Source: Pyrobaculum sp. WP30
GTDB taxonomy: Archaea; Thermoproteota; Thermoprotei; Thermoproteales; Thermoproteaceae
Direction of reading: 5' to 3'
DNA length: 64,000 bases
Assembly (NCBI GenBank): GCA_001189275.1
Contig: CP012158.1
Location: 1,240,001 to 1,304,000, forward strand
The notes under the pieces are model-generated. The model was not told the DNA's origin, searched no databases, and worked only from the letters and a program-made list of their open reading frames with translations. Of the stretch, positions 5,942-63,762 are shown one piece after another (the first letter of the stretch is position 1; every line of letters starts with the position of its first letter). The position numbers and the translations under genes are program-made.

Positions 5942-6817
5942 ATGCTCAGGTTACTGCGGCAGGTGGGCGACGTGGTGAATAAGGCGCTTAAATACGCACT
6001 TGACTTGGTACAGCCCGATGTCCCAGTTTTGGAAATATGTGAAAAGGTGGAGGCCTTCATCAGGTCCAACGACGCGAGGCCGGCGTTCCCAGTCAACATA
6101 AGCATAAACGAGGTAGCGGCGCACTACACGGCGAAGCGGGGGGACAACCTGCTGGTTCCGAAGACGGGTCTCGTGAAGATCGATGTGGGGGCTCAACGCG
6201 ACGGCTACATCGTCGACGCGGCGGTGACGGTGGCCTTAGGCCCGGTCTTTACAAACTTGGCTAAAGCCGCGAGAGCTGCCCTTGAAGCTGCGTTGAACAC
6301 GGCGAAGCCGGGGGTCAGGGCGTGGCAAGTAGGCGATGTCGTGGAGCGCACTATAAAGAACTACGGCTTCAACCCCATATATAACCTCACCGGGCACAAA
6401 ATTGAGCGGTATCTTCTACATGCCGGCTATGTGATTCCAAATTACCCGGACAAATCGGCGTCTCAAACTCTTTCCCCCGGCGATATCTACGCCATAGAGC
6501 CTTTCTCAACTAACGGAGAAGGCTATGTGGTAGACGGAAAAGAAATTACGATATTCCGTCTCGCGAGAATGCGGCATAAGGTTTTCCAGCCGCTGATAGA
6601 TGTGGTGAGCTCCGAGGCGGGGCCTCTGCCGTTCACGCCTCGTTGGTTTCCACAGATAGACGATAATACAATTGCTATGGCTCTCAAGGCTGGGGTGTTG
6701 CACGGCTACGAAGTTCTTGTCGAAAGGTCAAGAGGCTATGTGGCACAATATGAGGATACCGTATATGTGGGGGAGGATTCCGTGGTGCCCTTGGCTAGGA
6801 CGCTCGACCTGCTCTGA
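5942..6817 (+). CDS. map: Methionine aminopeptidase, type II
   Basis: 291 residues, the usual length of archaeal MetAP2, which removes the initiator methionine from new proteins in the cytoplasm. The pita-bread fold signature is visible: HYTAKRGD near 60, the first metal aspartate in KIDVGAQRDGYIVDAAVTV (about 77-95), and the late histidine/glutamate motifs in LTGHKIERYLLHAG and AIEPFSTNG (about 150-195). TATA AAAAATTTAA is centred 25 nt before the ATG. The stop codon TGA at 6815-6817 is the first part of a transposon-end-like repeat. It shares a 69-nt divergent promoter region with dnaG. Confidence 0.95.
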   Translation: MLRLLRQVGDVVNKALKYALDLVQPDVPVLEICEKVEAFIRSNDARPAFPVNISINEVAAHYTAKRGDNLLVPKTGLVKIDVGAQRDGYIVDAAVTVALGPVFTNLAKAARAALEAALNTAKPGVRAWQVGDVVERTIKNYGFNPIYNLTGHKIERYLLHAGYVIPNYPDKSASQTLSPGDIYAIEPFSTNGEGYVVDGKEITIFRLARMRHKVFQPLIDVVSSEAGPLPFTPRWFPQIDDNTIAMALKAGVLHGYEVLVERSRGYVAQYEDTVYVGEDSVVPLARTLDLL

Positions 6818-6870
6818 CCTCTGCCCTAAGGGGTTCTCCCTGGTTCTGCATCGATGCGCGCCCGGCGTCA
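6814..6870 (-). repeat. Degraded right end of TnpB-type element at map stop codon
   Basis: CTGACCTCTGCCCTAAGGGG followed by TTCTCCCT matches the right end of the TnpB element at 62156 (CTGACCTCC, then GCCCTAA, then GGG and TTCCCT) with a few small gaps. As in the better copies, the leading C-TGA supplies the last base of a sense codon and the stop of the upstream gene (map: CTC TGA). No left end or GTAA is recognisable, so it is a short, decayed copy. It lies between map and the thermosome promoter. Confidence 0.5.
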
Positions 6871-10709: not shown

Positions 10710-11024
10710 ATGGAGTTTTCGCTAAAAGTTGACGACGTAACAAGCGGCGCCCCCAACGTAATCACCTTGAAAGGCGATGTAGATGTGGTACTGGAGCTAC
10801 CGCTAGATAGGCTTGGAATAAGCATATCTAAAGGAAATAAAATAAAACTAGTTATACATAAAGAAAAAGACCAAGATCTACACAAGTACAAGATCTATGC
10901 ATGGGGCATCGTGTACTACGTAGGGGAGGGAATAACGCGGATCTCCATAGGAGGCCTGCAACTCGACATCAAGAAAGAACTCCCATTAAAAATCGGCGAA
11001 AAAGTATACGTCGGTCTTATCTGA
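10710..11024 (+). CDS. rpo8: RNA polymerase subunit Rpo8 (RpoG, Rpb8-like)
   Basis: 104 residues, of the length and all-beta pattern of crenarchaeal Rpo8, the orthologue of eukaryotic Rpb8. The diagnostic C-terminal part, YKIYAWGIVYYVGEG then ISIGGLQLDI (about 54-88), parallels the YxxYGxxY and SxGGLL motifs of Rpb8. The N-terminal half is strand-rich with the acidic/hydrophobic pattern VDVVLELPLDRLGI. TATA AATTTTTATACC is centred 26 nt before the ATG. The last codon and stop (ATC TGA) coincide with the end of a transposon-like repeat, so the final residue may have been changed by insertion (predicted ATG TAA before). Confidence 0.8.
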   Translation: MEFSLKVDDVTSGAPNVITLKGDVDVVLELPLDRLGISISKGNKIKLVIHKEKDQDLHKYKIYAWGIVYYVGEGITRISIGGLQLDIKKELPLKIGEKVYVGLI

Positions 11025-11237
11025 CCTCCTCCCCGCCCTAAAGGGCGGAGGTTCCCCCTTTGGGCGGCTCATCAGCGCCCTCGCCCGGCCCTCAACGGCC
11101 CCTCAGACCGGGGTCATGGAGCTACCCGGGCCAGCACCGCGGGTCATCCGCCCCCAGCAGGAGGCCATAGTTGTGAAAACGCCTATTTTAAAGCTTTCTC
11201 CCCATCCCCGCCCTAAAGGGCGGGGCTTTCTCCTGTT
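11021..11237 (-). mobile_element. Internally deleted TnpB element (MITE-like) after rpo8
   Basis: About 217 nt with both ends of the 62-kb TnpB element but no tnpB. The right end, CTGACCTCCTCCCCGCCCTA at 11021, continues with shared blocks TTCCCC, GGGCGG, GCCCTCGCCCGGCC, ACGGCCCCT, GGGGTCATGG and CCCGGGCCAGCAC out to about 11170. The left end, CCCCGCCCTAAAGGGCGGGG then CTTTC, lies at 11208-11232. GTAA (TTAC on the element strand) follows at 11238-11241. The retained right end corresponds to the region that in TnpB elements encodes the guide RNA. It sits between rpo8 and the Sm protein promoter. Confidence 0.75.
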
Positions 11238-42649: not shown

Positions 42650-43771
42650 GTGTACTGGGAGCTCTACAGGCCAGATGCGGTGGTGGTCTGGGAAAGCCCC
42701 GTAGTGAGGGAGAGGTTGCGTTGGTACTACTCAGTTATGCGCGGCTCGGCGCCGGCGAAGTTCCACATAGCCGCGAGGATGGAGGCGCCGCCGGATTACG
42801 CCTCGATGGGCGACGAAGAGCTGTGGAGGCTTCACGAGAGGCTAGGCGAAGTCTTCGACGATGAGTGGCGCCGCCAGAAGGAGAAGCCAGACGTAAGCCT
42901 AGTCAAGAAGGAGTTGCCGAGGGTCTCTTTCCTCGACGTGAAGATAGAACTAGGCAGGCGTCAACTTAGGCGTTGTATGCTTTGCGAGAGGCAGTGCGGC
43001 GTAGACAGGACGACGAGGAGGGGGGCTTGCCTCCTGGACCACAAGCCGCGGGTGGCAAGCTTCTTCCACCACCTAGGAGAAGAGGCGCCCTTGGTCCCCT
43101 CCGGCACTGTGTTTTTCTCTGGCTGCAACTTCCGCTGTGTTTACTGCCAAAACTGGGATATTTCACAGCATCCCGAAGCTGGCGTAGAGACGACGTCCCA
43201 GGCGCTCGCCGCAATACAGATCAGGCTAAGAGAAGAGGGGGCGCGCAACATAAATTGGGTAGGGGGCGAGCCGACCCCCAATATCCCGCACATACTTGAG
43301 TCGTTGAAGATACTAGCCGCGAGGGGTGTCAACGTGCCTCAGCTGTGGAACTCCAACATGTACCTAACGCCGGGGGGCCTCTCTCTGATTCTTCACGTCA
43401 TTGACATTTGGTTGCCAGACTTTAAATACGGCAACGACAAATGTGCTTTGAAGTACTCGGTGGCGCCGCGGTATTGGGAGGTTACGACGCGGAACTTCTC
43501 GGTTATATGTAGCAGGGGCGAGGACATAATCGTGCGGCATCTGGTGTTGCCGGGGCATGTGGAGTGTTGCACAAAGCCGGTCTTGAGGTGGCTTGCGGAG
43601 AACTGCCGACATGTCTTGGTGAACGTGATGGATCAGTACAGACCCGACCACCTCGTCCCGAAGATGGATAGGTATAGGGAGATCAGGCGGAGGGTCTCAG
43701 AGGGGGAGATGGAGGAGGCCTATAGATACGCCGACGAGCTCGGTTTGGCGTGGAGAGAGGTTACCAACTGA
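42650..43771 (+). CDS. Radical SAM protein, PflX-like (COG1313)
   Basis: 373 residues. N-terminal cysteine cluster CMLCERQCGVDR (about 107-118) is followed by the radical SAM motif FFSGCNFRCVYCQNW (about 152-166; C-x3-C-x2-C), GGEPTPNIPHILE (about 206) and the barrel. Related proteins are activators or maturases of unknown target. The GTG start at 42650 follows bud32 divergently. The stop TGA (AAC TGA) is formed by a transposon-end repeat; before insertion it probably ended AAG TAA, which changes one residue (Lys to Asn). Confidence 0.85.
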   Translation: MYWELYRPDAVVVWESPVVRERLRWYYSVMRGSAPAKFHIAARMEAPPDYASMGDEELWRLHERLGEVFDDEWRRQKEKPDVSLVKKELPRVSFLDVKIELGRRQLRRCMLCERQCGVDRTTRRGACLLDHKPRVASFFHHLGEEAPLVPSGTVFFSGCNFRCVYCQNWDISQHPEAGVETTSQALAAIQIRLREEGARNINWVGGEPTPNIPHILESLKILAARGVNVPQLWNSNMYLTPGGLSLILHVIDIWLPDFKYGNDKCALKYSVAPRYWEVTTRNFSVICSRGEDIIVRHLVLPGHVECCTKPVLRWLAENCRHVLVNVMDQYRPDHLVPKMDRYREIRRRVSEGEMEEAYRYADELGLAWREVTN

Positions 43772-43810
43772 CCTCCTCCCCGCCTTAAAGGGCGAGGCTT
43801 TCGATTATTT
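43768..43810 (-). repeat. Minimal copy of TnpB-element ends at radical SAM stop codon
   Basis: About 43 nt starting CTGACCTCCTCCCCGCC and continuing TTAAAGGGCGAGGCTTTCGA up to GTAA at 43811-43814. The first 17 nt match the right end of the 62-kb element; the rest matches its left end (GGGYGAGGCTTTCRATTATYTG). Everything between is lost. The hairpin CCCCGCC/GGGCGAGG could also act as a terminator between the convergent genes. The gene on the minus strand ends just after, at 43815. Confidence 0.65.
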
Positions 43811-56141: not shown

Positions 56142-56536
56142 GGAGTTCCCCTGGGCGGAAGGCACCCCCGTCTTCATCGGCTCTCGTGGGGCCCGGACCG
56201 GCGCCGCGGGTCACTGGGGGTTGCAGACAAGGTCTTGACATACACAACGGGCTGTGGAAATTCGTCTTCTTCGTAGGCTCATCCGACAAATCCCCAAGCC
56301 CTCTTTTCATCTCCTCCACATTCTACCACGCCGCCCCGTTGGGGTGGTTTTCCACAGCTTGTCCAGCCCTCTCTCCGCCGCGTAAACAGCCCCCTCCACA
56401 GTCCTCCGATACGCTTTCTCCACGGCGTTCAGGCGGCGGAACCCAGCCCGACCACCACCCTCCTCAGGCGTCCCATGGATCCGCCTTCTATTGATGAACC
56501 AACAAACCCAACCTCCTAAAGGGCAAGGCTCGTTTT
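56122..56536 (-). mobile_element. Degraded TnpB element with internal deletion (tnpB relic)
   Basis: Right end CTGGTCCTACCCCACCCTAA at 56122 aligns with CTGACC.. CCCGCCCTAA of the intact copy; shared internal blocks include CTTCATCGGC, GGGGTGGTTTTCCACAGC (about 56341-56358, matching about 62444-62462) and the left-end hairpin CCTCCTAAAGGGCAAGGCT (about 56514). GTAA follows at 56537-56540. Only the last ~80 codons of tnpB can be traced, with frameshifts and stops, so no protein is made. No other gene is seen in this 440-nt stretch. Confidence 0.7.
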
Positions 56537-60857: not shown

Positions 60858-60884
60858 TTTTTTCCGCGTTGACGCCTCTTTTTG

Positions 60885-62159
60885 ATGTCGCTCGCCGGCG
60901 TCGCGCAGGATCTTTCTGATCTACGCTTCCACGACCCTCCCTACGGGGAGTTTACCATTGCCCGTATTTTGAAGGAGTCGGAGGGCCGGTGGACCCCCCT
61001 CTTTAGGGGAGTCCGCAGGGGTTTCGCCGGCATTGGCAACATCTTGGATAGCCGATCTAAGCTTTATAGATATCTGGGCGTCGGAAGCGACGAGGAGGCG
61101 TACGAAAAGCTTCTTAACGCGTTGGAGAGACCTGGGGGGCTGGAGAGGGTTTCCGCCTGGAGGGATGTGTACAGGGAGGTTGAATCGCTTTACGACCTGC
61201 CCATGGTTCGGTACTACGAGAAAGAGGCGCGGCCCTACGTAACATCTGGGGTGGTTGTCGGCGTTGGCGTGGACGGGACTATGAACGCCTCCATCCACAG
61301 GTTTTCGCCCATTGCCGCGAGGAGGGCTGTTGTGAGGCTGGTTCCCCGCCACCTCTACCATATATACAAAGCCGGCGTGGAGGCGGGGAGGGAGGTTCCT
61401 ATCGCCGTGGCGTGGGGGGTGCACCCGCTGGTGTTGCTGGCGGCCGCCTCCTCTCCTCCTTTTGGCGTTTTTGAGCTGGGAGTTGCCTCTAGCCTAATGG
61501 GTGGGTTGAAGGTGATGGAGCTGGACAACGGCGCGGTGGCGCCTTTTATGGCGTCTGTGGTCATAGAGGGACATCTGACCAGGGAACTGGCTGAGGAGGG
61601 CCCGTTTGTCGACATCGTGGGTGTTTACGACCGCGTGAGGAGGCAACCCGTGGTCAAGGTGGAGAAGATATATGTGCTCCGGGACGACGCCGTTGTTCAT
61701 TACCTGTTGCCCGCCGGCTTGGAGCACATGTTGTTGATGGGCTTCGAGAGGGAGGCCAAGATATGGCGCGCCGCGAGGTCCGCGGTGCCGAGGGTTAAGA
61801 AGGTTAGGCTCACCAGGGGCGGGTTCGGCTGGCTTGTGGCCGTGATTTCGCTGGCAAAGTCCGTAGAGGGCGACGCCAAAAACGCCCTCTTGGCGGCTTT
61901 CGCCGCGCATCCAAGCCTAAAGATAGCGATAGCGGTAGACGAAGACATTGACCCAGACGACCCCGTGTCTGTGGAGTGGGCCATCGCGACGAGGCTCAGA
62001 GCAGATAGAGGCATCTTTGTTGTGCCTTACGTCAGGGGGTCTACCCTAGACCCTGTTGCGCTCAACGAAGAGGGGCTGACGCATAAGATGGGGATAGACG
62101 CAACGCGGCCTCTCGACGCAGACCCCACGCTCTTTGAGCGGGCGAGGATACCGGACTGA
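60885..62159 (+). CDS. UbiD-family decarboxylase, probably anhydromevalonate phosphate decarboxylase
   Basis: 424 residues from ATG 60885 (TTG 60882 also possible). UbiD features: FRGVRRGFAGIGNILDSRSKLYRYLG (about 40-65), TSGVVVGVGVDGTMNASIHRFSPIAARRAVVRL (about 123-155) and ELDNGAVAPFMASVVIEGHLT (about 204-226), with the prenyl-FMN-binding arginine/glutamate positions. In crenarchaea a UbiD homologue decarboxylates trans-anhydromevalonate 5-phosphate, after AcnX (family knowledge); AcnX is encoded just beyond the transposon. The stop (GAC TGA) is made by the transposon end. Confidence 0.88.
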   Translation: MSLAGVAQDLSDLRFHDPPYGEFTIARILKESEGRWTPLFRGVRRGFAGIGNILDSRSKLYRYLGVGSDEEAYEKLLNALERPGGLERVSAWRDVYREVESLYDLPMVRYYEKEARPYVTSGVVVGVGVDGTMNASIHRFSPIAARRAVVRLVPRHLYHIYKAGVEAGREVPIAVAWGVHPLVLLAAASSPPFGVFELGVASSLMGGLKVMELDNGAVAPFMASVVIEGHLTRELAEEGPFVDIVGVYDRVRRQPVVKVEKIYVLRDDAVVHYLLPAGLEHMLLMGFEREAKIWRAARSAVPRVKKVRLTRGGFGWLVAVISLAKSVEGDAKNALLAAFAAHPSLKIAIAVDEDIDPDDPVSVEWAIATRLRADRGIFVVPYVRGSTLDPVALNEEGLTHKMGIDATRPLDADPTLFERARIPD

Positions 62160-62300
62160 CCTCCTCCTCGCCCTAAAGGGCGGGAGTTCCCTCTGGGCGG
62201 GGAGGTGCCCTCGCCCGGCCTTCATCGGCCCCTCTGGCGGGGGTCATGGGGGCGGCCCGGGCCAGCACTGCGGGCCACTGGGAGCTGGCCATCAGCGCCT
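62156..62300 (-). ncRNA. Putative omega-RNA (TnpB guide RNA) region
   Basis: The last ~145 nt of the element are conserved in the tnpB-less copy at 11021 and partly at 56122, although little or no protein is coded there. In IS605-type elements the right end encodes the guide RNA, with the guide being flanking DNA beyond the right end (here the complement of the ubiD 3' end, below 62156). Conserved blocks are GCCCTAAAGGGCGG, GCCCTCGCCCGGCC and CGGCCCGGGCCAGCAC. RNA ends are not known. Confidence 0.5.
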
Positions 62301-63678
62301 TGAGCGAGGTCCACGCGGCGTGTACAATAGGCCGTGGAATGATGGGATTCGCCTTCCCCACAGCTTCCCTCGGCACGATCTCCTTCTTCAACCTCTTCCC
62401 TATCTCCTTCACGTCCCACCAAACTGCTTTCACCCACCCCGTGGGGGTGGTTTTCCACAGCATGTTAAGGACGGCCGCCGCGTCTCTATCCACGGCGTGG
62501 CCGCGGGGGCAGTGCAAATCATGCCAACCACCGCCGTTTTTCAACAAGGCGAAATGGGTGGGACACACCCGGCTGTTGCGATACGGCGAGACGTAAACTA
62601 CTACAGAGCCGACCTCTCTCGCCTTGTCCTCTATTGTCTTAAGCAACTTCTTAAACGGCGTCTGCTTGACGCGATGCCTCAGTTCTCTTTTCTTCACCTT
62701 CTTCTTCTCGACGCCGATCATCTCTTCCTGCGGGTTTTTGCTAAGCTCCTCCGTTATAATCAAGGCAGGGCTTTTCGTCATTTCGCGGGCGATTTGCCTC
62801 ACCCGGCCCTCCTTCCGCCTCCTCTCCCTAAGCCTCCTCGCGAATTTTCTAAACTCCCTCGTGTCTGTGACATTTTGCACTTTTTCTTCGTCGTCTCTCC
62901 CCGCGTATGGATATTTCCGCTTCAGCTCCTCCAGCTTTGCGTTTCTGACGGCCTCGTACCGCTTGGCAAGCCTGCCGAAGTCTGTTCTTATGGAGTAGAC
63001 GGCTGGATTAAGGTATTGCCTATTCCACTGTGCAACAGCGTCTACCGTGGCCAAGAGACTCACCTTGGCGACTGCTACCGAGTTTTCGTTTACGTCGAAG
63101 GCGACAGCCTCCGCCGGAGGCTCCCTCTTAGGCACTACATCAAAGACGAATATCGCAAACCACCTGCCCCTCCGCCGCTTCAGCACCAACGTAGATGCCA
63201 GCTCGACCTCTCTCCTCAGCATCTTCCACCAGTAGAGCCAGAACCTCCTATGCGGCTTTATCCAAATCTCTCTCCTCCCGCCTGGGAGAGACAGCCCCAG
63301 CCGGACGGGGGCTACAGAGCTGATAGCTTTCTTATAGCTCCAGCTGTCTTTAGCGAATCTTATCGAAACCCGCCGAACCTCGGGGCGGGGTTTGTGGACT
63401 CGGCCGTCTCTCTTCAGTTCCAGAAACGACTTGCCGGTCTCGACGCCTTGGTTCATCGCCTGCTGGATCAGTTGGGCGGGTAGGGGGTACTGCTTTCTGA
63501 AGCGGCGGTACAGCTCGTTGTACCTCTCCCTCTCCAGCGTCCTCCTCTCTGCGACGTAGGCGGCTACCTCTTCCACGATCTTCCGATATGGCTCCTCCAC
63601 GGCGTATAGCTCAGGCGGCGGGCGCTCAAGCTCTACGGCAACAGCCCTCCTCACACACTCCATGCCCCCACCACCCAT
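62173..63678 (-). CDS. tnpB: TnpB RNA-guided nuclease
   Basis: 501 residues (or 496 from ATG 63663). RuvC-like active site: D195 in AVAFDVNENSVAVA, E310/E311 in ALIITEELSKN, and D397/D399 in HAVDRDAAAVLN. The zinc finger is altered: C372-x2-H375 (VCPTHFALL) and C390-x3-H394 (HCPRGHAVD) instead of four cysteines. About 90 C-terminal residues beyond the active site are encoded by the guide-RNA region and are Pro/Ala/Arg-rich at the end. The family cuts DNA next to a short target motif under guide RNA control. All three acidic positions present. Confidence 0.9.
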   Translation of the reverse strand: MGGGGMECVRRAVAVELERPPPELYAVEEPYRKIVEEVAAYVAERRTLERERYNELYRRFRKQYPLPAQLIQQAMNQGVETGKSFLELKRDGRVHKPRPEVRRVSIRFAKDSWSYKKAISSVAPVRLGLSLPGGRREIWIKPHRRFWLYWWKMLRREVELASTLVLKRRRGRWFAIFVFDVVPKREPPAEAVAFDVNENSVAVAKVSLLATVDAVAQWNRQYLNPAVYSIRTDFGRLAKRYEAVRNAKLEELKRKYPYAGRDDEEKVQNVTDTREFRKFARRLRERRRKEGRVRQIAREMTKSPALIITEELSKNPQEEMIGVEKKKVKKRELRHRVKQTPFKKLLKTIEDKAREVGSVVVYVSPYRNSRVCPTHFALLKNGGGWHDLHCPRGHAVDRDAAAVLNMLWKTTPTGWVKAVWWDVKEIGKRLKKEIVPREAVGKANPIIPRPIVHAAWTSLKALMASSQWPAVLARAAPMTPARGADEGRARAPPRPEGTPAL

Positions 63679-63762
63679 AAAAACTTTGACGTACTACATC
63701 CCCGCCCTAAGGGGTGAGGCTTTCAATTATCTGCAAAGATATATAGTAAATACGCATCTCTG

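Follow-up and report, generated by a model that had tools for sequence, protein, structure and literature searches.

The window, a stretch of 64,000 nucleotides (bases 1240001-1304000 of a closed 1,993,257-bp archaeal genome), carries a full-length TnpB-only element of the IS200/IS605 type at the 3' end of a UbiD-family decarboxylase gene, together with shorter relatives at the ends of rpo8, a radical-SAM gene and map, and a degenerate tnpB fragment (Table 1). Comparison of the copies fixes the right end, read on the plus strand, as CTGACCTCCTCCCCGCCCTAAAGGG, and the left end as ...GGCTTTCnATTATTT, after which most copies have GTAA.

Table 1. The element, its relatives and the adjoining genes, in positions of the window
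Feature	Position	Strand	Basis or remark
Full-length TnpB-only IS200/IS605-type element (right end 62156, left end 63732)	62156..63732	-	ends from comparison of genomic copies and joined flanks
tnpB, 501 aa	62173..63678	-	Pfam PF07282, TIGR01766; RuvC-type residues
Right end and predicted omega-RNA scaffold	62156..62280	-	kept in full and miniature copies; consensus fold; sub-threshold HgcC match
C-TGA at the element's end, opposite the right cleavage site TCAG; serves as the stop of ubiD	62156..62159	+	sequence
Left end: hairpin with guide AAAG (CTTT on +)	63700..63732	-	sequence; layout common to most copies
What remains of the target: GCAA on +, where most copies have GTAA (complement TTAC)	63733..63736	-	sequence
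Gene for a UbiD-family decarboxylase; its stop is the TGA of the element	60882..62159	+	Pfam UbiD; orthologues end at most 2 codons away
217-bp miniature copy at the rpo8 (RpoG) stop	11021..11237	-	empty site ATG TAA
43-bp single-hairpin copy at the radical-SAM gene stop	43768..43810	-	empty site AAG TAA
Right-end remnant at the map (M24 peptidase) stop, left end lost	6814..6843	-	sequence, Pfam
Degenerate tnpB fragment, same family as the element's tnpB	56331..56439	-	sequence comparison

Two hallmarks of the IS200/IS605 group are present. Insertion occurs 3' of a short target without target duplication, GTAA (TTAC) being found once, at the left flank, and the joined sites being contiguous with the gene frames; furthermore, subterminal hairpins are accompanied by guide tetranucleotides that match the cleavage sites, AAAG on the left and GAAN on the right. 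In IS608 (ISHp608 of Helicobacter pylori), AAAG is the left guide for the target TTAC, and GAAT is the guide for the right cleavage site TCAA, so that the complements of the two sites are likewise G-TAA and T-TGA (PMC5934647). The window element similarly retains TTAC at the left flank, AAAG before the left hairpin and a TCAN right end with a GAAN guide, but differs from IS608 in lacking tnpA and in the fourth base of the right end, which is G (TCAG paired with GAAC).

The translation of tnpB contains the RuvC-type residues D (AFDVNEN), E (ITEEL) and D (DRD) as well as a zinc-finger-like segment (C..H/C..GH), and scores above the cut-off for PF07282 and TIGR01766 and below it for NF040570; a look-up of close relatives by name yielded two loci only. 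Among the four genomic copies of tnpB, dN/dS is 0.17-0.21, and TnpB is maintained by purifying selection. The TnpB of ISDra2 works with a right-end RNA that takes its guide from the flanking DNA (PMC8612924), and the TnpB in the window is a predicted RNA-guided nuclease of this kind, with TTAC as its putative TAM; ISDra2 differs in its target, TTGAT, the complement of which contains no stop codon.

Neither the element nor the rest of this genome, nor any of 18 other Thermoproteaceae genomes searched, yielded a Y1 HUH transposase TnpA (PF01797), and the element is accordingly classed as a non-autonomous IS200/IS605 (IS608-type) derivative only. With no Y1 enzyme found in these 19 genomes, we infer the mobilizer from a related family of the same order, in which three intact Y1-bearing IS605-type elements (L183, L184 and L185) have the same right end, consisting of a hairpin, GGAGGAGGTCAG and the guide GAAC. 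The left end of L185 is also the same as that of the window element (TTAC, AAAG and the CCTCGCCCC hairpin). Unlike the window element, these three carry tnpA along with a tnpB of different sequence, and the target of L183 is seemingly TTAT. Two of the three are located on in-frame stops: the intact tnpA-tnpB element of L185 (1364-3165) sits on the end of a CcdA-like antitoxin gene, where AGG TAA became AGC TGA, and the joined end of the gene in L183 reads AAA TAA, in keeping with the TTAT target. The simplest reading is that the window element would be moved in trans by such a Y1 transposase.

A sequence-only reading of the window had noticed that the C-TGA at the right end of four copies coincides with the in-frame stop of the abutting gene, and this holds for all four, namely, rpo8 (11022-11024), the radical-SAM gene (43769-43771), ubiD (62157-62159) and map (6815-6817). 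That reading had further joined the flanks of two copies and proposed that GTAA, the complement of the target, overlaps a G-TAA stop, which the TCAG end of the element replaces with an in-frame C-TGA. Removal of the element indeed restores ATG TAA at rpo8 and AAG TAA at the radical-SAM gene, and joined flanks outside the window agree: GTG TAA became GTC TGA in a thiolase gene, CTG TAA became CTC TGA in the gene for ribosomal protein uL30, and GAG TAA became GAG TGA, that is, a G-TGA end, in the gene for a PD-(D/E)XK nuclease-like protein. Thus, the empty sites of five copies in this genome yield an in-frame G-TAA. The present left flank at ubiD reads GCAA instead of GTAA, so that the joined frame reads through; this change probably reflects drift after insertion, the stop having become dispensable for the copy. 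At map, the left end has been lost, only the right end remains, and accordingly the empty site cannot be reconstructed. The exchange of TAA for TGA at host stops is confirmed as real and recurrent.

Orthologues were sought in 10 relatives within the genus. The element-free 3' ends that were fetched terminate with TAA, TAG or TGA at the same place or within two codons of it, which fits insertion onto a pre-existing stop, and none of the fetched orthologous sites contains the element. The expectation that element-free genes end in G-TAA was borne out by three uL30 orthologues (TTG TAA), whereas others end in TAA, TAG or TGA up to two codons away. An element-free orthologue ending in C-TGA, which the sequence-only reading had named as contrary evidence, was encountered once, the uL30 gene of genome G008 (CTC TGA), beside the three that end in G-TAA.

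The genome contains 17 right ends at 3 or fewer mismatches, and map has a further, degenerate one. Full-length copies number four, the other three being 80-82% identical to that in the window; several miniature copies measure about 200 bp, and some with one hairpin are only 33-43 bp long. To judge from their sequences, these single-hairpin copies (43768-43810 and those in L037, L042 and L047) are apparently fusions of the right and left hairpins across shared hairpin sequence. Elsewhere in the order, a single genome, G031 (L221-L280), harbours about 84 right ends, mostly of a variant with the left end ..TTTGCCGTTCGTTTT adjoining ATCA (target TGAT), many of them only about 45 bp long.

Not all copies sit on stops, an option that was considered and rejected: 6 of the 17 right ends do (7 of 18 with map included), and the other 11 are intergenic or disrupt genes. 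At least four copies break or truncate genes; one interrupts vapC, another a permease gene that was damaged already, and an M20 peptidase gene and a reductase-like gene are truncated. In the vapC (PIN-domain) toxin gene of L031, a miniature copy lies after about 25-30 codons. The existence of gene-breaking copies implies that strict aiming is absent and that the element does not avoid genes. With about 60% of the copies off stops, these four genes included, the suggestion that insertion is harmless by design goes too far. Scattering without regard to stop codons, which the sequence-only reading had named as contrary evidence, is seen in part, with 11 of the 17 right ends elsewhere.

The background for this enrichment consisted of the window and 19 further stretches, 444 kb of the same genome, in which 28 of 1523 GTAA/TTAC sites (1.8%) are exact in-frame stops according to gene calls from our own model. 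Of the two-ended copies, which are few, 6 of 16 are on an exact in-frame stop (P 2.6e-7, with ubiD and its drifted target counted). The copies in the window prompted the finding; those outside it, taken alone, give 3 of 13 (P 0.0015). If only stops and intergenic sites are assumed to be tolerated, 8.8% would be expected on stops compared with 6 of 12 seen (P 2.7e-4); P is 0.007 if just half of the intergenic sites are tolerated, and 0.04 if tolerance is limited to the 100 nt that follow the 3' end of a gene, on the strand of that gene. Strict automatic detection of left ends yields 3 of 12 (P 0.05), a weak signal because drifted ends are missed. The flanks of the copies in this genome have no apparent motif beyond GTAA.

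Related right ends were also collected across the genus, family and order. Copies with an intact TGA and a recognizable TTAC-type left end were scored for position on a stop, 100 codons being the minimum length of the open frame; the statistics assume that copies are independent, and the ORF criteria are our own. On these terms, 11 of 40 TTAC-target copies are on in-frame stops, against a score of 21 of 703 for ordinary GTAA sites of those loci (Fisher P 1.5e-7), and the excess persists in genomes other than that of the window (7 of 27, P 1.1e-5). By contrast, among copies of the order that combine this right end with a TGAT-type left end, most of which come from a single genome rich in copies, 0 of 29 are on stops (P 0.0013). 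For the pooled set, 3.5 of 40 would be expected if stops and all intergenic sites were tolerated (11 seen, P 0.0005) and 6.5 of 40 if stops and half of the intergenic sites were (P 0.05). Genes hit across the order include those for ribosomal protein uL22, a SufB/D protein, NurA, an MptE-like protein and a GNAT acetyltransferase. Most of the excess can be attributed to selection against gene disruption, perhaps not all, and a residual bias of targeting or retention may exist beyond selection.

Most copies retain TGA and differ in the base before it, and this pattern can be traced to the cleavage sites of IS608-type elements. Among relatives, the right-end site and its guide pair as TCAG:GAAC (13), TCAT:GAAA (5) and TCAC:GAAG (1), with two exceptions; hence, the fourth right-end base covaries with the DNA guide, and TCA is constant. 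In the consensus fold of the right end, the terminal GGTCA pairs with an upstream TGACC. Nearly all GGTCA/TGACC pairs are invariant, and covariation support for the omega-RNA fold is therefore absent. TCA would thus be fixed by cleavage-site recognition and by the predicted omega-RNA pairing, reasons unrelated to translation. A site T[TC]AN is N-TRA on the other strand, so that a TTAC lying across a stop yields TAA before insertion and TGA after it, in register.

We consider it very probable that IS608-type chemistry combined with selection against gene disruption, without a special aiming device, accounts for both the exchange of stops and their enrichment. An IS608-like Y1 transposase would move the non-autonomous, TnpB-carrying element in trans and insert it 3' of TTAC on single-stranded DNA. 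The target, TTAC, and the right end, TCAN, both conform to T-pyrimidine-A-N because each is recognized by a short DNA guide (AAAG on the left and GAAN on the right), and the opposite strand reads G-TAA and N-TGA, respectively. Where TTAC lies across a G-TAA stop, TAA is swapped for the TGA of the element in the same codon, and the last codon changes at the wobble base at most; in TCAT-ended relatives, NNG becomes NNA, usually a synonymous change. Insertions at stops would be close to neutral and persist in a gene-dense genome, with intragenic ones mostly purged, leading to strong over-representation at stops.

A modest active bias or retention through TnpB may add to chemistry and selection. 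An active preference, whereby the machinery, or single-stranded DNA exposed at the ends of transcription or translation, would favour stop-spanning TTAC beyond selection, could draw on the excess over all tolerated sites (about 3-fold across the order and about 6-fold in this genome) and on the 6:1 ratio of exact stops to sense 3'-intergenic insertions in this genome. This excess, however, vanishes if the tolerated sites are those just 3' of genes, some 60% of the copies in this genome lie off stops and several break genes, and the flanks lack an apparent motif beyond GTAA; we regard such a preference as quite unlikely. Retention through TnpB also seems unlikely. At position 62156, the omega-RNA guide would consist of the adjoining bases, antisense to the 3' end of ubiD, and with a guide antisense to a conserved gene end, TnpB might cut element-free alleles, so that insertions at stops persist or home better. 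The purifying selection on TnpB with its catalytic residues retained in a genome without a transposase, the omega-RNA end kept in miniature copies, and the gene-drive action of TnpB in favour of IS+ copies in plasmids (PMC11870625) are in line with this scenario; against it, all fetched orthologous sites are devoid of the element, so that homing to a shared site across species is not in evidence, and any flank, gene end or not, would serve as a guide.

Two further readings concern the TGA itself. Selection of the right end for carrying a stop would explain why TGA is kept and the base before it varies, but TCA already appears fixed by cleavage-site recognition and omega-RNA pairing, bacterial IS608 combines TCAA with TTAC, and the TGAT-target variant has the same TGA with none of its 29 copies on stops; this reading is highly improbable. 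The idea that the genes ended in C-TGA before insertion, the match being coincidental, can point to uL30 of G008. It is nevertheless refuted by the joined sites at rpo8, the radical-SAM gene, thiolase and uL30, in-frame TAA being obtained at several independent genes, and moreover, the TGA belongs to the element, occurring also in copies far from genes, and the enrichment is strong (P 2.6e-7 and 1.5e-7); its chance of being correct is negligible. Beyond the explanation by chemistry and selection, there is a modest chance that, for TTAC-target IS608-type elements, stops are a recurrent and partly preferred safe harbour, in which host reliance on the TGA and guarding by an antisense omega-RNA would hold copies in place.

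Through this exchange, a transposon can enter essential genes, such as those for an RNA polymerase subunit, uL30, uL22 and SufB/D, without breaking them, and known cleavage-site rules explain how, since the other strand of T[TC]AN is always N-TRA, a stop. The rule is applicable to other TTAC-target elements, for example IS608, and the literature searched contained no description of IS200/IS605 elements, IS608 included, exchanging stop codons. Annotators will meet element ends acting as host stop codons, and precise excision brings back the original stop.

The right end, the predicted omega-RNA portion that miniature copies keep, matches the Rfam HgcC RNA (RF00062) over its full length (62146-62278, minus strand; 32.4 bits, E 3.5e-5), a score below the gathering score of 50 that does not establish membership. 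On the strength of this match, HgcC RNAs may be omega-RNAs of TnpB.
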